Virus record (IMG/VR): IMGVR_UViG_3300030389_000498 | Coordinates: 1 to 32,618 of that record | DNA length: 32,618 bases | Strand: one strand, 5' to 3' | From: a virus | Shown here: positions 17,980 to 28,200 of the stretch, in pieces | How positions within the stretch are numbered: the stretch's first letter is position 1 | Layout: every line of letters begins with the position of its first letter | The notes under the pieces: generated by a model | Databases searched by the model: none | What the model was told of the DNA's origin: nothing | What the model saw: the letters and a program-made list of their open reading frames with translations, nothing else | Program-made: the position numbers and the translations under genes

Positions 17980-18292
17980 CGTCCGTTTCCTTAACTGCTG
18001 GCTGATACTTCTGATTGATGGCATCCCCCACTGGCTTTAGACCACCCTGCGATATACCGTCAGCGATGTTGTCTTTTGATTCGTAATCTCTTACTTCAGA
18101 TATTGCTATGGACAAACTGTTGTCATCGTTTTCAAAGACTGCAACAGAATATCTTGAATCACCTCGCAAGTGTATGTCTGCTGGCGATCCATCTACAAAT
18201 GGTTTCCAGTTACCGTTGCCGTGTGTGCCTCGCTTATGGTCATCATTTGGAAACACTTTGATTGTGGTAACTTTGATATATCTTCTAGCCAT
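17960..18292 (-). CDS. SSB-like single-stranded-DNA-binding protein
   Basis: A 110-residue protein that ends in DDDDIPF, the acidic, Phe-terminated tail by which SSB proteins recruit partner enzymes. The body (VTTIKVFPNDD, then FVDGSPADIHLRGDSRYSVAVFENDDNSLSIAISEV) is beta-rich and could be a small OB-fold, though it is shorter than E. coli SSB (178). It lies directly after the ERF-type annealing gene with TAATG overlap and AAAGGAG upstream. Together they form a phage recombination pair. Confidence 0.68.
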   Translation of the reverse strand: MARRYIKVTTIKVFPNDDHKRGTHGNGNWKPFVDGSPADIHLRGDSRYSVAVFENDDNSLSIAISEVRDYESKDNIADGISQGGLKPVGDAINQKYQPAVKETDDDDIPF

Positions 18293-18963
18293 TACGCTTC
18301 TCCTTTTAGTTGTTTCATTTTCTTCTGTATTCTATCTACAGCCATCTTTGCCAAGTCAGGGTTGTGTTGCCTCATGTGGGCAATCCCGTTTTTTGTATGA
18401 TCAGTGTTACACCAAGCAATAAACTTACCTTTGTCAGTGACCTCGCCCACCTTTTTGTTTACCTCACCAAAAAAGTCTTGCGTCTTGCGTACCTCTGGAT
18501 CGTCATCACGCTTGGCTGGCACAGGGTTTTCTGGGTCAACCACAGGCTTATTCTCTGCTTCTGCCTGTGCTTCACGCTTGCGACCTACACCATCCATCTC
18601 ATTAGCAGATGCGTACTCACCACCAGCTAGGCCGATAGATGCAAGCGCACGGCCTACAGCAGATGTCTCACAATTTTCTAAGGCTGATGTTTGATTGACA
18701 TGGCCTTGTCCTCTTATCTCTTCAGCCATGCCAGCCCCAACAACTATGCCGTCAAGGTTTGTGATGGTGGCTTTGACAACCACACGCTGCCCATCATCGA
18801 CAAGGATCTGTGTGTCTACACCGTACTCCGTACCATAGAACCGCCGGAACGCTTCCATTCGATGCACAACCTGTGTGTACATCTTACCGCCACGCTGCTT
18901 CACGCCATGAGTTTTGTTTAACTCATGCACAAAGTCCATAACATTGCTAAAATTATTCTCCAT
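18292..18963 (-). CDS. erf: ERF-type single-strand annealing recombinase
   Basis: A 223-residue protein. The core SAVGRALASIG (residues 101-111) followed by LAGGEYASANEM is the hallmark of the ERF superfamily, which anneals complementary DNA strands during phage recombination and genome circularisation. Residues 1-100 form the DNA-binding core; residues of about 125-165 are a Pro/Glu/Asp-rich linker; the C-terminal segment is helical. GAGG lies 9 bases before the ATG, and it overlaps the preceding gene by 11 bases. Confidence 0.88.
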   Translation of the reverse strand: MENNFSNVMDFVHELNKTHGVKQRGGKMYTQVVHRMEAFRRFYGTEYGVDTQILVDDGQRVVVKATITNLDGIVVGAGMAEEIRGQGHVNQTSALENCETSAVGRALASIGLAGGEYASANEMDGVGRKREAQAEAENKPVVDPENPVPAKRDDDPEVRKTQDFFGEVNKKVGEVTDKGKFIAWCNTDHTKNGIAHMRQHNPDLAKMAVDRIQKKMKQLKGEA

Positions 18964-21770: not shown

Positions 21771-21939
21771 TTGTTTTAAATGTCAGGGCAAGGGCTGGGT
21801 CTATGTGCGTAACAACTTTGATCCAACTGGCGGTGATGTAGTGCCTGATTCCTGCTGGGATTGTGACGGGACAGGTAAAGAGCCTGTAAAAGATCAAAAA
21901 ACTTTGGAGTTAATTAACAATGCAGGAGCAATCAAATGA
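21751..21939 (+). CDS. DnaJ-type zinc-ribbon small protein
   Basis: A 62-residue protein with Cys8-x2-Cys11-x-Gly-x-Gly (CFKCQGKG) and Cys35-x2-Cys38-Asp-Gly-Thr-Gly, one zinc site of the DnaJ cysteine-rich type. Such mini-proteins are common in phages. The gene overlaps the HTH gene by 20 bases and has GGTGAAAG before its ATG. Function unknown. Confidence 0.7.
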   Translation: MTSLQTDCFKCQGKGWVYVRNNFDPTGGDVVPDSCWDCDGTGKEPVKDQKTLELINNAGAIK

Positions 21940-22567
21940 GAGTAAGTTTCCGATGCTTTGTCGTTACTCGCATAAAGATAACCCTATACCTACTGGCTGG
22001 AAGTTTACTCTATTACATGGTCATCATGGCTACAATGGGTATGGTGTTTTGACTAGACAAAAAGATGACTTTTATCCTACGCCAAAAGAGGCCGTAGAAG
22101 CCCTCATACGGGCTGAAAAGCTGCCAAAAGATATCTGGGAGCCAGCTTGCGGTGACGGGTCTATCAGTGAGACATTAAAAACTGCTGGTCACAATGTCAT
22201 ATCAACAGACTTGAACGATTGGAATTACGGGACAACAGGCGTGGACTTTCTCATGGAGCTGAAACCTCTTGCGTCAGCCGTTGTGACTAACCCACCTTAC
22301 AAGTTGGCTAACGAGTTTGTAATTAAGTGCTTGGACATGAAGCTGCCATACTTTGCCATGCTGTTAAGGCTAGCTTTCTTGGAAGGCAAGCAGCGCAGAC
22401 AAGAGATATACAACAGGCAACCACCAGCAAGAGTTCACGTTTTCTCTGAGCGTTTGACGATGTGGAGAGGCGATGAAGAGCAACCGGAAGGATCAACAGG
22501 TTTCATAGCTTTTGCGTGGTATATATGGCAACAGGGCAATACAGATACTAAACTGAGGTGGCTATAA
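21920..22567 (+). CDS. DNA N6-adenine methyltransferase
   Basis: A 215-residue protein. DFYPTPKEAVEALI starts the fold at residue 50; motif I is EPACGDG (74-80), followed by STDL (95-98), and the catalytic motif IV is NPPY (124-127), typical of N6-adenine methylases. No separate recognition domain is seen and no restriction partner lies nearby, so it is a solitary methylase that may protect phage DNA or mark sites. The ATG at 21920 (GGAG ten bases before) is one option; the segment before residue 50 is not needed for the fold. The target is unknown. Confidence 0.85.
   Translation: MQEQSNESKFPMLCRYSHKDNPIPTGWKFTLLHGHHGYNGYGVLTRQKDDFYPTPKEAVEALIRAEKLPKDIWEPACGDGSISETLKTAGHNVISTDLNDWNYGTTGVDFLMELKPLASAVVTNPPYKLANEFVIKCLDMKLPYFAMLLRLAFLEGKQRRQEIYNRQPPARVHVFSERLTMWRGDEEQPEGSTGFIAFAWYIWQQGNTDTKLRWL
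21936..22052 (+). CDS. Out-of-frame hydrophobic 38-residue ORF inside the methyltransferase gene
   Basis: An ATG at 21936 with AGGAG eight bases upstream, and in ATGA overlap with the zinc-ribbon stop, opens a second frame of 38 codons. The product starts MRVSFRCFVVTRIKITL, then a hydrophobic segment LYLLAGSLLYYMVIMATMGMVF with no charge. The start signals are better than those of the methyltransferase itself. It could be a small membrane peptide or a start-region coincidence. Confidence 0.3.
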   Translation: MRVSFRCFVVTRIKITLYLLAGSLLYYMVIMATMGMVF

Positions 22568-23056: not shown

Positions 23057-23096
23057 ATAAAAAAAGCAATGCTCTACATCATTGCAAAGCATTGCT
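23050..23096 (-). terminator. Terminator of the leftward small-gene block
   Basis: AGCAATGCT at 23065-23073 pairs perfectly with AGCATTGCT at 23088-23096 (9 bp, 14-base loop). Read leftward it is followed by TTTTTTATTTATAA, a classical intrinsic terminator. It lies 31 bases past the stop of the last gene of the block. Confidence 0.78.
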
Positions 23097-23126
23097 CTTA
23101 TGCCGTGCGGCATTGATCTTTCTCTG

Positions 23127-23318
23127 CTAGTCTACGACTGCGTGTTTTTTGTACAGCAGCACTAAAAGCTGTATTGGCTTGGGTATCTTTCTCTGCCCGT
23201 GTTCATAATAGAAAATTGCTCTTTCTGATACGCCCAATAGCTGACCAAATTGTTTAGCTGTAATTTTTAGCCTCTCTCTTTCGGCCTTAAATTCTGCTGG
23301 CGTCATTTCTTTATTCAT
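23127..23318 (-). CDS. XRE-family HTH protein, last gene of the small-gene block
   Basis: A 63-residue protein consisting of one HTH domain: RLKITAKQFGQLLGVSERAIFYYEHGQRKIPKPIQLLVLL. AAAGGGATAAC precedes the ATG. Its leader contains a hairpin with the block's GGATCAAG string in the loop. It may control the block in which it lies or the rightward genes opposite. The regulator role is a family-level inference. Confidence 0.72.
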   Translation of the reverse strand: MNKEMTPAEFKAERERLKITAKQFGQLLGVSERAIFYYEHGQRKIPKPIQLLVLLYKKHAVVD

Positions 23319-23361
23319 GTTATCCCTTTCCCATAGGCCTTGATCCGCCTATGTTTGCTAG
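23319..23361 (-). promoter_or_regulatory. Repeat leader, copy 9 (hairpin form)
   Basis: Contains CTAGCAAAC and GGATCAAGG like the other leaders, but here GGATCAAG is the loop of a perfect 7-bp hairpin (CATAGGC 23332-23338 with GCCTATG 23347-23353). A second ribosome site, AAAGGGA, follows before the ATG. Confidence 0.6.
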
Positions 23362-23362
23362 T

Positions 23363-23399
23363 AAAGGGCAGTTATGAATCCAACGCATAGCTGCCCTTT
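23363..23399 (-). other. Long hairpin after the gene at 23405
   Basis: AAAGGGCAG (23363-23371) pairs with CTGCCCTTT (23391-23399), continued by a T-G wobble and TATG/CATA, making about 14 pairs with a 9-base loop. No T-run follows in either direction, so it may stabilise or process mRNA rather than end it. Confidence 0.7.
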
Positions 23400-23404
23400 C
23401 TCTT

Positions 23405-23785
23405 TTAGCTTGCACGTTTCTCAACTAGTGCAGTTATGTTTGTTACATTCACAGCAAGATAAGTTTTGCCTGTTTGATCTGTGATATATGACAAGCCAAT
23501 CAGATCACCTGTTTGGGCTTTTCTCTTTAAGCCTGATATGCTGATCCTTTTGTCGCCTCTTGTTTTGGCCCTGTAAAAAGTGACATCACAGGCCGTGCCA
23601 TCGTGCCAAACGCCTTTAACAGTGATTTTTTGGCCCCTCTCTATCTGGCTATAATCAACGTCAAACAAGGCAGCTAGTTTTTGCGTGTCCTTTTTTGCGT
23701 CCATGATGTATTTATTGATCATGGTATCGGTAAGCCTGATCTGTGCTACTTGTGGCGATAGCGATTTAATTACTTTCTTTTCCAT
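23405..23785 (-). CDS. Hypothetical protein with beta-rich C-terminus
   Basis: A 126-residue protein; the ATG at 23785 follows the repeat leader (GAAAGGGCAAACA), and the longer frame upstream lacks one. Residues of about 55-115 (QKITVKGVWHDGTACDVTFYRAKTRGDKRISISGLKR, then GDLIGLSYITDQTGKTYLAVNV) are an alternating strand pattern with Arg-rich turns. This faintly resembles B3-like DNA-binding barrels of restriction enzymes such as the EcoRII N-terminal domain. That is a guess; the family is not recognised. Confidence 0.62.
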   Translation of the reverse strand: MEKKVIKSLSPQVAQIRLTDTMINKYIMDAKKDTQKLAALFDVDYSQIERGQKITVKGVWHDGTACDVTFYRAKTRGDKRISISGLKRKAQTGDLIGLSYITDQTGKTYLAVNVTNITALVEKRAS

Positions 23786-23806
23786 TGTTTGCCCTTTCTC
23801 TTTTAC
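23786..23806 (-). promoter_or_regulatory. Repeat leader, copy 8
   Basis: GTAAAAGAGAAAGGGCAAACA before the ATG. It lacks the TAGC part and has GGGCAA in place of GGATCAA. The TAA stop of the gene before it lies within this leader. Confidence 0.6.
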
Positions 23807-24090
23807 TGTGTAATTTTTATGTATTGTTGCCAAGTTATTGAACAGACAACAGCCCATTCATCACTGGCGAGATCCCATATCATGGCTGCATGATAAGGCT
23901 GATCTAAAATTTTAAATGCTGTTAAAGCTTCAAGCCGCGATTCATAAAACATCATCATGGCTTGATCATCACTCAAAACATTTTTAGATTCTTTGTGAAT
24001 TTCAAAGCGATCTTTTTGCTCTGAATAAAAATTTTTACAGGCTGTATGAGATAGATCTAAAGCATCCTGTATTGAATATTGAACAATCAT
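23803..24090 (-). CDS. Hypothetical protein of the small-gene block
   Basis: A 95-residue soluble, helix-rich protein (MIVQYSIQDALDLSHTACKN..., then DEWAVVCSITWQQYIKITQ). No motif is recognised. It starts after repeat leader copy 7 and its TAA lies inside leader copy 8. The arrangement of start signal and leader supports it as real. Confidence 0.6.
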   Translation of the reverse strand: MIVQYSIQDALDLSHTACKNFYSEQKDRFEIHKESKNVLSDDQAMMMFYESRLEALTAFKILDQPYHAAMIWDLASDEWAVVCSITWQQYIKITQ

Positions 24091-24112
24091 TGTTTGATCC
24101 TTTCTTTGCTAG
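24091..24112 (-). promoter_or_regulatory. Repeat leader, copy 7
   Basis: CTAGCAAAGAAAGGATCAAACA before the ATG: the consensus form. Its TAG is the stop codon of the gene upstream, so leader and stop are fused. Confidence 0.7.
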
Positions 24113-24345
24113 TCTTTGAAATGTTCAGGATAAAGATCAATAAACATTGATCGGCCTTGCCCATCTCTCATTCCTATCTCATAGGAATATTTGCCATTGT
24201 CATTTAATTCTTGTTCAATGCAATCTGACTCATTTATTTCTGAGGCAATTCCATCCGCTAATAAGTAAGAACCTTTTGGGGTTTTGTCCTTATTTTCATC
24301 GATCCATTTCTGGATCTCAAAAACTCCATCAACATTTACAAACAT
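24109..24345 (-). CDS. Hypothetical acidic protein of the small-gene block
   Basis: A 78-residue acidic protein (MFVNVDGVFEIQKWIDENKD..., then YEIGMRDGQGRSMFIDLYPEHFKD). It follows leader copy 6 and ends in a TAG that begins leader copy 7. No family recognised. Confidence 0.6.
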   Translation of the reverse strand: MFVNVDGVFEIQKWIDENKDKTPKGSYLLADGIASEINESDCIEQELNDNGKYSYEIGMRDGQGRSMFIDLYPEHFKD

Positions 24346-24369
24346 TGTTTGACCCTTTCTGTTTGCTAG
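24346..24369 (-). promoter_or_regulatory. Repeat leader, copy 6
   Basis: CTAGCAAACAGAAAGGGTCAAACA, directly before the ATG. One base differs from GGATCAA. The upstream gap carries three hairpins (24374-24446). Confidence 0.7.
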
Positions 24370-24373
24370 TTAT

Positions 24374-24446
24374 GCCATTAGTGGCGATTTAAACGCAGTA
24401 CAGCGTTTATCACTGCCCTGCTGGTAGGTGAGTACCAAACAGGGCA
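24374..24446 (-). other. Cluster of three hairpins in an intergenic gap
   Basis: GCCA-TTAG-TGGC (24374-24385), TAAACGC with GCGTTTA (24390-24409, 6-base loop) and TGCCCTG with CAGGGCA (24414-24446, with an inner TGGTA/TACCA pair). They fill the gap between the small membrane ORF and the next leader. No coding frame fits here. Confidence 0.68.
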
Positions 24447-24466
24447 GACATAAAGGCTGTAGGGCT

Positions 24467-24571
24467 TTAAATCATCATTAAAACTGTAAAGCCCCATATT
24501 GTAGCCATAAAGACAAAGCCAGCTAGTAGATTCTCATGCTTGATCAGAAAGTTGTTTATCTTTTTGAACAT
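24467..24571 (-). CDS. 34-residue single-span membrane peptide
   Basis: Reading leftward from the ATG at 24571 to TAA at 24467. The product starts MFKKINNFLIKHENLLAG and continues as one hydrophobic helix ending TVLMMI: two positive charges near the start, then a membrane span, the usual N-in topology. GAGGGAG lies about 10 bases upstream, within the end of the preceding gene, whose stop is 2 bases before the ATG. It is the only gene of the block without the repeat leader. Confidence 0.5.
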   Translation of the reverse strand: MFKKINNFLIKHENLLAGFVFMATIWGFTVLMMI

Positions 24572-24573
24572 GA

Positions 24574-24885
24574 TCAAAACTCCCTCACAAGATAGCCAGC
24601 ACCAACTGGAATAATTCTTGTGGCTTGCTCTAAAGCCTCAATAAAGTTTTCTGGATCATGATTTTCATCTAGTAAATGATCAAAGTCATTCATCATCTCA
24701 TCAAGATCCCCGTACTCATGCCACTCACATCTAAAGGCAACGGGATCAAAGTCTATCGGCTCGCCTTGATCATCGCTCAATTCTTCATAGTAATTATAGA
24801 GCTTGATCGCTGCTTGATAGCTAAATGAATCTCTAATCACTTGATTACCAGTGAAGTCTGATTGTGTTATTTCTTGCGTAATCAT
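24574..24885 (-). CDS. Small strongly acidic protein
   Basis: A 103-residue protein with about 26 Asp/Glu against about 5 Lys/Arg. The stretch YEELSDDQGEPIDFDPVAFRCEWHEYGDLDEM resembles a signature of small acidic proteins found in many phages and plasmids (a two-helix start, then FDPVAxRCxW-EY). Their role is not settled to my knowledge; the charge would suit a DNA-mimic or anti-restriction protein. That is inference only. Confidence 0.65.
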   Translation of the reverse strand: MITQEITQSDFTGNQVIRDSFSYQAAIKLYNYYEELSDDQGEPIDFDPVAFRCEWHEYGDLDEMMNDFDHLLDENHDPENFIEALEQATRIIPVGAGYLVREF

Positions 24886-24903
24886 TACCTTAATCCTTTC
24901 TTA
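24886..24903 (-). promoter_or_regulatory. Repeat leader, copy 5
   Basis: TAAGAAAGGATTAAGGTA before the ATG. It is shorter, has GGATTAA in place of GGATCAA and lacks TAGCAAA. The TAA is the stop of the previous gene. Confidence 0.55.
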
Positions 24904-25167
24904 ATTCAGATTGACCAAAGCAATATTCCCAGCCTTGATCTCTTTTTCAGTTTGCTTTTTATCCATGCCTAAAAACTGGTTTCTATACTTTCCAGTTGTA
25001 GTTGAATAATCCCAGTAATATTGATCCAACTTAACAACGCCTGATGAAATATGACGCTGTGCAATCACTGAATCATATGATTGAAAATACTCAAACTCTC
25101 CATCAATTGCGATAAACTGGTTAGCAATCTTGTTGCCATTGCGTGACGTAATGTTTTTAACTTTCAT
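24901..25167 (-). CDS. Conserved small phage protein (QSYDSVIA / TTGKYRNQFLG type)
   Basis: An 88-residue protein. The sequence NQFIAIDGEFEYFQSYDS, then the VVKLDQYYWDYSTTTGKYRN and FLG segment with a C-terminal KAGNIALVNLN, matches a small family I have seen in many phages; I know no function for it. It follows repeat leader copy 4. Confidence 0.72.
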   Translation of the reverse strand: MKVKNITSRNGNKIANQFIAIDGEFEYFQSYDSVIAQRHISSGVVKLDQYYWDYSTTTGKYRNQFLGMDKKQTEKEIKAGNIALVNLN

Positions 25168-25192
25168 AGCCTTGATCCTTTCTTTGCTTGCT
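25168..25192 (-). promoter_or_regulatory. Repeat leader, copy 4
   Basis: AGCAAGCAAAGAAAGGATCAAGGCT before the ATG. Full GAAAGGATCAAG core. Confidence 0.7.
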
Positions 25193-25196
25193 ATGC

Positions 25197-25270
25197 TGGC
25201 ATTGTTGCCAAGTAATAACCAAGCATTGCCTGATTATTACTAGGCAAGGCTGGCAAGGCCAGCCAAGCCT
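25197..25270 (-). other. Cluster of three hairpins in an intergenic gap
   Basis: TGGCA-TTGT-TGCCA (25197-25210), AGTAATAA with TTATTACT (25211-25241, 15-base loop) and GGCTGG with CCAGCC (25248-25264, outer AGGC/GCCT). They are abutting and cover nearly the whole gap. No coding frame is apparent. Confidence 0.7.
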
Positions 25271-25277
25271 GTTTTAT

Positions 25278-25469
25278 TCAATCATAGTAAAATGATTCTG
25301 GCCTTTCTATTAGCTGGCCTTGTTTGTTTGTTAATCCTACACAATCACCATTGCAGCGCGATATAATGAAATACTGGCCTAGGCTATCCTTGATCACCCT
25401 GTAATTGTCATTTTTCCAGAATACCTTGCGGCCTATTTTTAACGCGAATTGAATATTTGATAATGTCAT
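25278..25469 (-). CDS. Conserved small phage protein (FWKNDNYRVIKD type)
   Basis: A 63-residue protein from the ATG at 25469, right after the repeat leader; the longer frame has no such signal. GRKVFWKNDNYRVIKDSLGQYFIISRCNGDCVGLTNKQG is a pattern I recognise from small phage proteins of unknown function. It is beta-rich and lacks membrane segments. Confidence 0.68.
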   Translation of the reverse strand: MTLSNIQFALKIGRKVFWKNDNYRVIKDSLGQYFIISRCNGDCVGLTNKQGQLIERPESFYYD

Positions 25470-25492
25470 AGCTTGATCCTTTTCTGTTTGCT
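25470..25492 (-). promoter_or_regulatory. Repeat leader, copy 3
   Basis: AGCAAACAGAAAAGGATCAAGCT before the ATG, an almost consensus copy with one more A in the GAAAAGG part. Confidence 0.7.
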
Positions 25493-25494
25493 GT

Positions 25495-25564
25495 TGGCGT
25501 TTTTGCCATTTCAACACCTCTTTTGAGATATTGAAAAGGCAAGGCAGCATTACACTGCCTAGCC
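25495..25564 (-). other. Cluster of three hairpins in an intergenic gap
   Basis: TGGC/GCCA (25495-25508), TTTCAA/TTGAAA with CTC/GAG inside (25509-25536), and AGGCAG/CTGCCT (25542-25560) extended by GGC/GCC to 25538-25564. They follow the stop of the upstream gene. The layout repeats that of the other two hairpin gaps. Confidence 0.68.
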
Positions 25565-25570
25565 ATTAAG

Positions 25571-25930
25571 TTAACTGTATTCTCTGACAGTAATGCCATA
25601 AGATTCAATGTGCTGTTTCATTTTGCGTGATAGGCGATCAAAATATTTGCCGCCTCTGACTATGCTTGGCGTGTCATTCCAATGGCCTTCACGATAATCA
25701 ATTGAAGCTCTGTTGTCTAAATCCCTGTAGAATGTCCACATTGTGTCAATGTCTACCATTGTTGAAGGCTTTATATTTCCAGATAGTAATTCATCTAAAA
25801 AGGTGATGTATATTTTACGATCTGATTCACAAGCAATCCCGTCAGAGCATTCAATAAAGTTTGATACCTCAGAGTAATTGTACATTGAATTGTGATTGAA
25901 TCTGAATCCAAAAGGTATTTTATTTGTCAT
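25571..25930 (-). CDS. Hypothetical protein of the small-gene block
   Basis: A 119-residue protein (IPFGFRFNHNSMYNYSEVSNFIECSDGIACESD..., then MWTFYRDLDNRASIDYREGHWND). No motif recognised. It follows the repeat leader copy 2, which at the same time codes the end of the upstream gene (ATGA overlap). Confidence 0.6.
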   Translation of the reverse strand: MTNKIPFGFRFNHNSMYNYSEVSNFIECSDGIACESDRKIYITFLDELLSGNIKPSTMVDIDTMWTFYRDLDNRASIDYREGHWNDTPSIVRGGKYFDRLSRKMKQHIESYGITVREYS

Positions 25931-26148
25931 AGCTTGATCCTTTCGTTTGCTATTTGATTTTTAGGCTTGTTAGAATCATCCTGGTTGATCACTACTTCAA
26001 AGCAATATGTTTTACTAAGTAATGATAAGGCAGCTTCGTCAAATGTTTTGCGCTTGGCAAGAATTGCAAGGCTGCGAGTGCCTTCACAGTCTGGATAGAA
26101 TAGCGTTTGACCGTAGACTGTTTTAGGTGTGAAGAATAATTTAGTCAT
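25927..26148 (-). CDS. Hypothetical protein, first gene of the small-gene block
   Basis: A 73-residue protein from the ATG at 26148; GAGGATCAAAACA, leader copy 1, lies directly upstream, and the longer TTG start has no signal. Its last codons (Asn-Glu-Arg-Ile-Lys-Leu-stop) are encoded by leader copy 2, so the leader is read as protein here. Ser/Thr/Lys-rich, soluble. Function unknown. The promoter at 26184-26212 serves it. Confidence 0.6.
   Translation of the reverse strand: MTKLFFTPKTVYGQTLFYPDCEGTRSLAILAKRKTFDEAALSLLSKTYCFEVVINQDDSNKPKNQIANERIKL
25931..25951 (-). promoter_or_regulatory. Repeat leader, copy 2 (coding)
   Basis: AGCAAACGAAAGGATCAAGCT before the ATG; the stretch also codes for the last residues of the gene at 25927-26148. 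Confidence 0.7.
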
Positions 26149-26175
26149 TGTTTTGATCCTCAATATTTGTTTGCT
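26149..26175 (-). promoter_or_regulatory. Repeat leader, copy 1
   Basis: AGCAAACAAATATTGAGG, then ATCAAAACA, before the ATG. Here GAGGATCAA replaces GAAAGGATCAA. It lies directly downstream of the promoter, so it is the 5' leader of the block's transcript. Confidence 0.65.
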
Positions 26176-26183
26176 ATAATCTT

Positions 26184-26212
26184 AATATATGACCATCGTG
26201 CAGGCTTGTCAA
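26184..26212 (-). promoter_or_regulatory. Sigma-70-type promoter of the leftward small-gene block
   Basis: On the minus strand: TTGACA (26212-26207), 17-base spacer, TATATT (26189-26184). The -35 matches 6/6 and the -10 5/6. Transcription would start near 26177, about 29 bases before the first gene. The -35 is embedded in the small palindrome GCTTG-T-CAAGC, which could be an operator. Confidence 0.72.
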
Positions 26213-26537: not shown

Positions 26538-26924
26538 ATGGCAAAGCTTACAAAGACACGGATTGATGACTTGGTTGGCATGATTATGGAAGGTCATAGT
26601 CTTGCTCGTTCTTGTGCTGAGTTGAGTATAAGTAGGCGTAACATTTACAGCCGTATGGGTAAGGATGCTGAGTTAGAGCGTAGGATCAGAACGGCCCAGC
26701 AGCAGAGTGCTGAGAAGGCTGTTGAGGAGTTGGATGAGTTATACCAGCAGAGGTTGAGGGGTGAGAAAGATTATGACCCTAATGTGCTGCGAGATTATGC
26801 TACTCATGTAAGGTGGAAGGTTGGAAAGTTATTGCCTGACAGGTATGGTGAGCAGAAGAAAAAGGCTGGTGTTGAGATAGGTGATGGCACTGTTCGGATA
26901 GTCTGGGAAACAGATGCAGGTTAA
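26538..26924 (+). CDS. terS: Terminase small subunit-like DNA-binding protein
   Basis: A 128-residue protein. The N-terminal helix-turn-helix (DDLVGMIMEGHSLARSCAELSISRRNIYSRMGKD, split over residues 10-43) and a following helical RIRTAQQQSAEKAVEELDELY resemble small terminase subunits, which recognise phage DNA and regulate the motor. GAGG lies before the ATG. It overlaps the large subunit by 11 bases. Confidence 0.8.
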   Translation: MAKLTKTRIDDLVGMIMEGHSLARSCAELSISRRNIYSRMGKDAELERRIRTAQQQSAEKAVEELDELYQQRLRGEKDYDPNVLRDYATHVRWKVGKLLPDRYGEQKKKAGVEIGDGTVRIVWETDAG

Positions 26925-28200
26925 GATACCTTACAAGCCTAGAGTATTACAGGCTGAGATGCATGAGAGTTTGAAGCGTTGGAATGTGCTTGTGATGCAC
27001 AGGCGTTTCGGTAAGACGGTCTGGGCTGTAAATCATTTAATCAGACATTGTTTGACTTGCGAGTTACCAAGGCCAAGGGTTGCTTTTGTAGCCCCTACCT
27101 TTACACAGGCTAAGAGAATAGCTTGGGATTATGTAAAGTATTATGCCAGTGTAATACCAGGCGTTAGTTTCAATGAGACAGAGCTGCGTGTGGACTTTCC
27201 GAATGGGGGGCGGTTGATGCTGTTGTCGGCTGAGAATCCCGACAGCTTACGTGGTATTTATTTAGACTTATGTGTATTTGATGAATATGGGATGCAGAAC
27301 CCTAGAGTATGGGGGGAAGTGGTGAGGCCAGCCCTGTCAGATAGAGAGGGTGCGGCTGTATTTCTAGGCACACCAGCAGGACATAATCATTTTTACGATT
27401 TGCTAGAGACTGCCAAAACAGAAACACAGAACGGCTCTGACCAGTGGTACTGGAAAATAGTCAAGGCATCTGAAAGCAATCTTGTTAAAGAAGAAGAGTT
27501 GGAAGCTGCCAGCAATCAAATGACGCTGGAGCAGTATGAGCAAGAGTATGAGTGTTCGTTTACAGCGGCTATCATAGGTGCATACTATGGGCGGTTGCTG
27601 ACAGAGGCAGAAGATAACGGCAGAGTAACAAGAGTGCCGTATGATCCTGCATACCCTGTACATACCGCATGGGATCTGGGTATAAATGATAGCACAGCTA
27701 TTTGGTTTGCACAGATATTTAGAAGTGGAGCAGTAAATGTCATTGATTATTACGAAAGCTCTGGAGTGGGCCTCGAACACTACGCAGAGATTTTGCGGCA
27801 AAAAGACTATCACTGGGGAGATCATCTCGCCCCCCACGACATCGAAGTCAGAGAACTCGGTTCGGGCAAAAGCCGCCTCGAAACGGCGTTCAGCCTCGGC
27901 ATCAGGTTCAAAGTCATCCCGAAAATGAAAGTAGCTGACGGTATCAATGCAGCACGGTTATTGATACCCAAGTGTCATTTTGACCGTGACAGATGCGCTG
28001 AAGGCGTAGAAATGCTCAAGCAATACAGGCAAGAGTGGGATGAACGTAAAAAAATATTTAGGGATCATCCAAGGCATGATTTCACAAGCCATGCTGCGGA
28101 TGCGTTTAGGTATCTGGCTGTTGGGCTGGAGAATAGACAAAGTTATACTAAACCCCCTCAACAAGTCGCAGTTAATGAGTATAATCCGTTTACTTTGTAA
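26914..28200 (+). CDS. terL: Terminase large subunit (packaging ATPase and nuclease)
   Basis: A 428-residue motor protein. Walker A HRRFGKT at residues 29-35, the adenine-binding VAPTFTQAKRIAW near residues 61-73, Walker B LDLCVFDE at 119-126. The nuclease half starts with the HTAWDLGINDSTAIWF segment (Asp near 254) and ends with HDFTSHAADAFRYLA near 388-402, the acidic cluster of the RNase-H-like fold. The length fits short terminases of podoviruses. It cuts and pumps DNA into the head through the portal. Confidence 0.95.
   Translation: MQVKIPYKPRVLQAEMHESLKRWNVLVMHRRFGKTVWAVNHLIRHCLTCELPRPRVAFVAPTFTQAKRIAWDYVKYYASVIPGVSFNETELRVDFPNGGRLMLLSAENPDSLRGIYLDLCVFDEYGMQNPRVWGEVVRPALSDREGAAVFLGTPAGHNHFYDLLETAKTETQNGSDQWYWKIVKASESNLVKEEELEAASNQMTLEQYEQEYECSFTAAIIGAYYGRLLTEAEDNGRVTRVPYDPAYPVHTAWDLGINDSTAIWFAQIFRSGAVNVIDYYESSGVGLEHYAEILRQKDYHWGDHLAPHDIEVRELGSGKSRLETAFSLGIRFKVIPKMKVADGINAARLLIPKCHFDRDRCAEGVEMLKQYRQEWDERKKIFRDHPRHDFTSHAADAFRYLAVGLENRQSYTKPPQQVAVNEYNPFTL

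Follow-up and report, generated by a model that had tools for sequence, protein, structure and literature searches.

The early array and its leaders

The window analysed here is the whole of IMG/VR virus record IMGVR_UViG_3300030389_000498, 32,618 nucleotides (nt) long, and our subject is a short leader that recurs before the small genes of its early array. The 32.6-kb record comes from a marine virus of bacteria, distant kin of the HTVC010P-type pelagiphages (about 51% identity in terL, 57-59% in portal). The array runs leftward, upstream of a divergent terS-terL operon, and comprises ten genes of 34-126 amino acids (aa), almost all without known function, with a promoter-like TTGACA-17-TATATT at its head and a terminator-like hairpin at its end. 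The material consists of metagenomic contigs with mechanical gene calls. The comparison set of about 45 related viral contigs was collected by searches with the terL, RusA-like and terS proteins, and many of these contigs have an array at the same position.

An earlier note on this DNA had proposed that variants of one leader precede nine of the ten genes. All nine starts that it named are present on the minus strand, and the leaders before them comprise six full forms, two partial forms and one rebuilt as a hairpin. The full form, AGCA[AG], 0-14 nt, A[AG]GG[AG]T[CT]A, 1-6 nt, ATG, occurs six times on the minus strand of the array, before the genes starting at 26148, 25930, 25469, 25167, 24345 and 24090, against 0.005 expected (1000 dinucleotide shuffles, maximum 2). 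It is found neither on the plus strand of the array nor in the remaining 59 kb of the window, both strands counted. Partial leaders precede the genes at 24885 (lacking TAGCAAA) and 23785 (GAGAAAGGGCAAACA, lacking both TAGCAAA and ATC). At 23318 the leader is split into TAGCAAA, a hairpin with GGATCAA in its loop, and GGAAAGGGATAACATG; the earlier note missed this form, and also the degenerate leader that follows the last gene (23129-23111). The tenth gene, at 24571, has no leader.

The same note held the leader to be private to these genes, and to be doubted if it also stood before the late operon. AGG[AG]TCA occurs at 0 of 30 late (plus-strand) and 0 of 9 middle (minus-strand) starts in the window, and the late and middle genes prefer GGAG sites. 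Conservation upstream of AAAGGA, which the note had expected in relatives, extends to both sides of the Shine-Dalgarno (SD) core: ATCA after GG is kept in nearly all anchored leaders, and TAGCA is conserved in relatives too. The anchoring is partly circular, and at unanchored positions the counts are 98/106 for the C and 92/106 for the A after ATCA. The stop codon of the upstream gene does fall within some leaders, and the leader of 25930, when translated, gives the end of the first protein (..QIANERIKL*), just as had been noticed; in 53 of 78 leaders, the genes being packed, the upstream stop lies at most 34 nt away. The sequence gives good support to reading the leader as a start-associated sequence (SAS), that is, an extended SD together with a conserved ATCA that would not pair with 16S rRNA.

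Several simpler descriptions of the leader were rejected. Taken as a motif without the start-codon constraint, GAAAGGATCAA occurs 20 times with up to two mismatches where 13.3 are expected, which is not above chance. In a scan of the whole collection with the exact string AGCAAA..GAAAGGRTCAA, 61 of the 71 matches examined in unrelated contigs have no adjacent start codon and 11 of the 13 examined in family contigs head an open reading frame (ORF), so the motif alone is no signature. The isolated relative HTVC010P (terL 51%) does not have the leader.

Table 1. Features of the early array, listed from head to end
Feature	Coordinates	Strand	Remarks
Sigma-70-like promoter TTGACA-17-TATATT, array head	26184..26212	-	From sequence; TTGAC at same place in relatives
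Leader 1, slot-1 form TAGCAAACAAATATTGAGGATCAAAACA	26149..26176	-	5' half common to different first genes
Cassette gene 1, 73 aa	25927..26148	-	No family match; C-terminal end encoded by leader 2
Leader 2 TAGCAAACGAAAGGATCAAGCT	25931..25952	-	
Cassette gene 2, 119 aa	25571..25930	-	Weak phrog_21004
Leader 3 AGCAAACAGAAAAGGATCAAGCT	25470..25492	-	
Cassette gene 3, 63 aa	25278..25469	-	phrog_35422
Leader 4 TAGCAAGCAAAGAAAGGATCAAGGCT	25168..25193	-	
Cassette gene 4, 88 aa	24901..25167	-	phrog_21575
Leader 5, partial, GAAAGGATTAAGGTA	24886..24900	-	Without TAGCAAA
Cassette gene 5, 103 aa	24574..24885	-	phrog_9974
Gene 6, 34 aa	24467..24571	-	Without leader in window; constant in near relatives
Leader 7 TAGCAAACAGAAAGGGTCAAACA	24346..24368	-	
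Cassette gene 7, 78 aa	24109..24345	-	Family F3
Leader 8 TAGCAAAGAAAGGATCAAACA	24091..24111	-	Its TAG ends gene 7
Cassette gene 8, 95 aa	23803..24090	-	Family F6
Leader 9, partial, GTAAAAGAGAAAGGGCAAACA	23786..23806	-	
Cassette gene 9, 126 aa	23405..23785	-	Family F7
Hairpin 1 GGGCAGCTATG-CGTTGGATT-CATAACTGCCC	23366..23396	-	After AAAGAGAAAGG joint; also within short ORF
Leader of constant last gene: TAGCAAA, hairpin, GGAAAGGGATAAC	23319..23360	-	
Hairpin 2 CATAGGC-GGATCAAG-GCCTATG	23332..23353	-	Leader core in loop; fold z-score, covariation
Constant last gene F1, 63 aa	23127..23318	-	Helix-turn-helix (HTH_3)
Empty joint, degenerate leader TAGCAGAGAAAGATCAATG	23111..23129	-	No gene; relatives have one gene there
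Terminator-like hairpin and T run closing array	23059..23097	-	From sequence

Gene turnover at the leaders

Contigs whose terL is 96-99% identical carry differing sets of small genes drawn from one pool, in loose order and each behind a leader; only the 34-aa gene and the last helix-turn-helix (HTH) gene, F1, are near-constant. The array is an accessory, fast-turnover region in an otherwise conserved genome. BLAST comparison of 11 near relatives gave 140 distinct ends of homologous blocks, 103 of them within -45..+12 of a start codon, where 27.9 +/- 4.8 would be expected, and 84 within -5..+12, where 8.7 +/- 2.9 would be; 32 of 96 block starts lie in a leader where 11.6 are expected.

Single cases tell the same story at the level of the joint. 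Families F3 and F6 stand behind two leaders in the window, and F6 stands alone behind one in contig L006; what L006 lacks is gene 7, the absent stretch beginning precisely at one leader and ending precisely at the next, and it keeps the flanks of the first leader together with the second leader. After F1, the window, L206 and L189 have a degenerate leader with no gene behind it and then the terminator region, and the slot is filled by four different genes in L205, L139, L192 and L203, between the leader and the same downstream sequence. The first slot of L189 holds a 292-aa gene behind a leader whose 5' half is that of the slot (TAGCAAACAAATAT) and whose 3' half is the gene's own (AAAGGATCAAAGGCT). 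The comparison thus supports well the view that the leader marks joints where genes are gained, lost and replaced between near relatives. The earlier idea of a cassette joint that lets genes be exchanged as units is supported by breakpoints at leaders, by empty and filled slots and by the leader-to-leader absence of a gene in a relative. In L203 (3580-3900, position approximate), the extra gene after F1 shares the C-terminal codons of F1 (KHAVVD) and then the same joint, so that a direct repeat flanks the insert.

The phage also encodes proteins that may perform the exchange. A conserved protein at 18292-18963 (TSALENCETSAVGRALASIGL) has no Pfam, NCBIfam or PDB match by sequence, and its structural model resembles in fold viral models labelled Erf, SAK3, Rad52 and RecT. 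A RusA-like resolvase is encoded as well. Rad52-like recombinases are known as drivers of phage mosaicism, acting on homologies that are short and diverged (PMC3945230), and it seems likely that the phage's own set, the 18292-18963 protein and the resolvase, would be the engine of cassette exchange. As a separate observation, the terL of the window (26914-28200) groups with L015-L024, and the window's array, terS and RusA-like gene are closer to lineage B; by sequence comparison there is an apparent mosaic junction near terS/terL.

Lineage-specific cores and a hairpin before the last gene

The core of the leader follows the lineage rather than the gene. L016 and its kin have AGGAATCAAACA, L021-L024 have AAAAGGAA.TAAACA and lineage C has GAAAGGATCAG, and the leaders of lineage D (AGGAATCAA) recur without GATC; more distant relatives often retain the 5' word CTAGCAA, and their core changes as a set. 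Among families present in both kinds of lineage, GG[AG]T[CT]A is found in 67 of 86 leaders of the GATCA lineages against 2 of 48 in the others (Fisher p 4e-18), the lineage grouping being informed by leader type. On a terL tree, which was built without the leaders, leader type requires 2 changes, against 11.2 with shuffled labels. Several families are 76-81% identical across lineages and nonetheless carry the local leader, the backbone early genes there being about 45-65% identical, and the leader pattern is conserved across lineages with small terminase subunits only 57-62% identical. Individual genomes have shifted too: GGGATCA is found in 5 of 5 typed leaders of L203 but in its near relatives in 1 of 55 (p 1e-6), and GGAAGGATCA in 3 of 5 leaders of L206 (p 0.003). 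Such parallel shifts of the core within genomes are concerted evolution, whether through recombination among leaders or through a shared reader. F1 (23127-23318) itself changes from lineage to lineage (35-60% identity) in step with the leader, and it is a candidate partner of the leader.

In nearly every array with GATCA leaders, a hairpin stands before F1, within the split leader (TAGCAAA, hairpin, then GAGAAAGG..ATG). Lineages A and B share the loop GGATCAA, and their stem occurs as CATAGGC, CATGGGT, CACGGGT, CATGGCT, CAGGGC or GCGGT, with matching changes on the other side. Overall, 95% of the stem cells are paired, four of the seven pairs have changed on both sides, and nine cells are changed on both sides against 3.2 after shuffling, slid registers being far worse. 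The copy in the window, hairpin 2, folds at -11.8 kcal/mol (z -3.70). A stem of 10-11 bp displays AAAGGATCAGCAAA in lineage C. Loop and leaders agree by lineage, with GGATCAA in 68 of 77 leaders and in the loop of A and B, and GGATCAG in 27 of 46 leaders and in the loop of C. That the loop is conserved on a stem that covaries speaks for RNA-level recognition, and a loop with the lineage's own core may point to an RNA-level partner, be it protein, RNA or ribosome. The earlier note had suggested that the leader is more than a ribosome site; this stands for the joint, and for a regulator the signs are indirect, namely the lineage-matched cores and the covarying hairpin. An Rfam search returned nothing relevant. 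The stems of the neighbouring hairpin 1 (23366-23396) vary in relatives around the loop GUUGGAUU, and related loops (GGGGCAUCC) are seen in L029 and L045.

What the leader may do

SAS were first described in cluster K mycobacteriophages (PMC3203893) and later in Microbacterium cluster EF (PMC7302621) and Citrobacter phage Mordin (PMC4611695). Like them, our leader is an asymmetric element that recurs before many non-structural genes, in the position of a ribosome site. It is composed of an SD and conserved unpaired bases, sometimes contains the upstream stop, is absent from structural genes (here from all late and middle starts) and is held in one orientation (here with none on the opposite strand). 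The 13-bp consensus of cluster K, GGGATAGGAGCCC, differs from TAGCAAA..AAAGGATCAA here, as does the host; the leader is an SAS by class, not by descent. About half of the cluster K SAS have 17-bp imperfect inverted repeats upstream, the ESAS (extended SAS), whose consensus varies between subclusters (PMC3203893). None were seen upstream of the nine leaders, and whereas the ESAS repeats have been argued not to form RNA hairpins, the hairpin here, found before F1 only, covaries as one. T4-type phages have PeSL (Arbiol 2010 and Comeau 2014, as cited in PMC4503421), which in that citing account are promoter-terminator cassettes with early promoters and stem-loops. As described there, they resemble our leader in being short regulatory elements that recur between genes and mark sites of gene shuffling between relatives; they differ in that our array, as read from its sequence, has one promoter at its head and one terminator-like hairpin at its end, and its repeated unit is a translation start. 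Short conserved boundary sequences have also been proposed as recombination sites in phage mosaics, most of whose boundaries are said to lack them (PMC3029335); here short homology is likewise found at gene joints, but at almost every one.

Relative to known SAS, the mapped cassette joints, the behaviour by lineage and not by gene, and the loop-displayed core are new. How a phage imports and immediately expresses foreign early genes is an open question, and the boundary sequences of modular exchange have been mostly elusive. Joint, start signal and candidate regulator site here coincide in one short sequence, which has many natural variants, differs by lineage and stands at slots both empty and filled, and we expect that the role of SAS, a question since 2011, and boundary-driven exchange become directly testable with this array.

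We favour, with a probability of about 0.72, the reading that the leader is the start-associated sequence of a single-promoter early array, serving as a joint and carrying a lineage-following core; recombination and a reader are parts of it that we infer. Each leader stands at the SD position, before array genes only, and would supply the start signal. Recombination, probably by the annealing-type recombinase of the phage, may use the leader as short homology, and an imported gene would thereby arrive with a working start site. Less certainly, a trans-acting partner might read at the RNA level the bases left unpaired with rRNA, with GGATCA taken as one unit. The best sign of such a partner is the covarying core-loop hairpin, which lies immediately before the SD of the constant HTH gene, placed as a translational operator or sensor would be. 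It is tempting to speculate further that the array forms an RNA regulon whose recognition word is specific to the lineage, in which a co-evolving factor reads GGAUCA in all leaders and in the loop of the sensor hairpin, and the word doubles as joint. This extension is tentative; if it were true, any imported gene would fall at once under the phage's own control.

Several points tell against the favoured reading. Breakpoints at gene boundaries are also expected if selection purges recombinants inside genes, and repeated leaders force BLAST blocks to end at the ATG, whatever the crossover point. An exact-string test of chimeric leader halves over all leaders points in the same direction as the L189 case and is weak. 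The recombinase model has low confidence (pLDDT 69.7) and no significant PDB match. The hairpin is absent in lineages without GATCA leaders and its stem is broken in L045; no regulator gene was found, and CsrA is not encoded in the record. The pairing of the SD with 16S rRNA is presumed by us from general knowledge of alphaproteobacterial 16S ends; a host search of genome contigs gave a single distant match to a metagenome-assembled genome, without a 16S match.

Alternatively, the leader could be a strong, uniform ribosome-binding site only, maintained by selection for fast early translation, with swaps arising by illegitimate recombination and selection for intact genes. The boundary breakpoints would then be expected, leaders are a little less folded than late starts (0.62 vs 0.51 unpaired), and AGAAAGGA can pair with UCCUUUCU of what we take to be the relevant, alphaproteobacterial 16S rRNA. 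However, TCA and TAGCAAA are conserved though they do not extend this pairing, unrelated genes carry lineage-specific cores, shifts such as GGGATCA occur in single genomes without better pairing, and a hairpin loop at a distance from the SD carries the core again, so we regard this explanation as rather unlikely. In a translational regulon, a phage or host RNA-binding protein or small RNA would read GGAUCA for coordinate control and feedback, and exchange would be a by-product. The covarying hairpin with the lineage's own core in its loop fits such a regulon, as does the specificity of the leader to strand and start codon. CsrA/RsmE sites present GGA in hairpin loops overlapping SDs, and a GGA core is likewise found here in leaders and hairpin loop; here, however, the conserved unit is GGATCA, the leaders are unstructured and the record has no CsrA. 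No other candidate binder was found either, F1 is HTH-like and such proteins normally bind DNA, and lineages D, E and H repeat their leaders without such a hairpin. A regulon with exchange as by-product is a real possibility, if short of probable. Recent duplication, in which leaders are alike as they were copied lately along with their genes, would account for their near-identity within genomes; it is hardly credible, being already largely refuted by the many unrelated families, not paralogues, among the array proteins, and the pattern persists over the terS divergence given above.

It is improbable, too, that the leader is conserved as a DNA-level signal, its core GATC being part of a GATC-dense early region that bears a methylation or repair mark. 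The density itself is plain: the region 23090-26210 has 35 GATC sites, 11/kb against 2.8/kb in the rest, and the array coding sequence of lineages A and B has 11.6 per kb. There GATC is the most over-represented of the 256 tetramers under synonymous shuffling (z about 12, codon-pair context uncontrolled), with z 13.5 in A, 9.0 in B, a weaker 3.2 in H and no enrichment in C, D and E; the same gene families have 11.7 per kb against 4.4 per kb in other lineages (p 5e-4), and GATC is depleted in the late genes of the window (z -3.1). Yet lineage C keeps GGATCA leaders without coding enrichment, so enrichment alone does not explain the leader; leaders are oriented and spaced relative to the start codon, and those of lineage D repeat without GATC. 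As for the enrichment, a cause at the DNA level seems likelier because it is symmetric around the palindrome. An adenine-type DNA methyltransferase (phrog_799, NPPY motif) is encoded at 21920-22567. It is present in lineages A and B and recurs at 54-57% in L016, L017 and L019; a check of contigs from E, H and C did not find it. It could bear on GATC.

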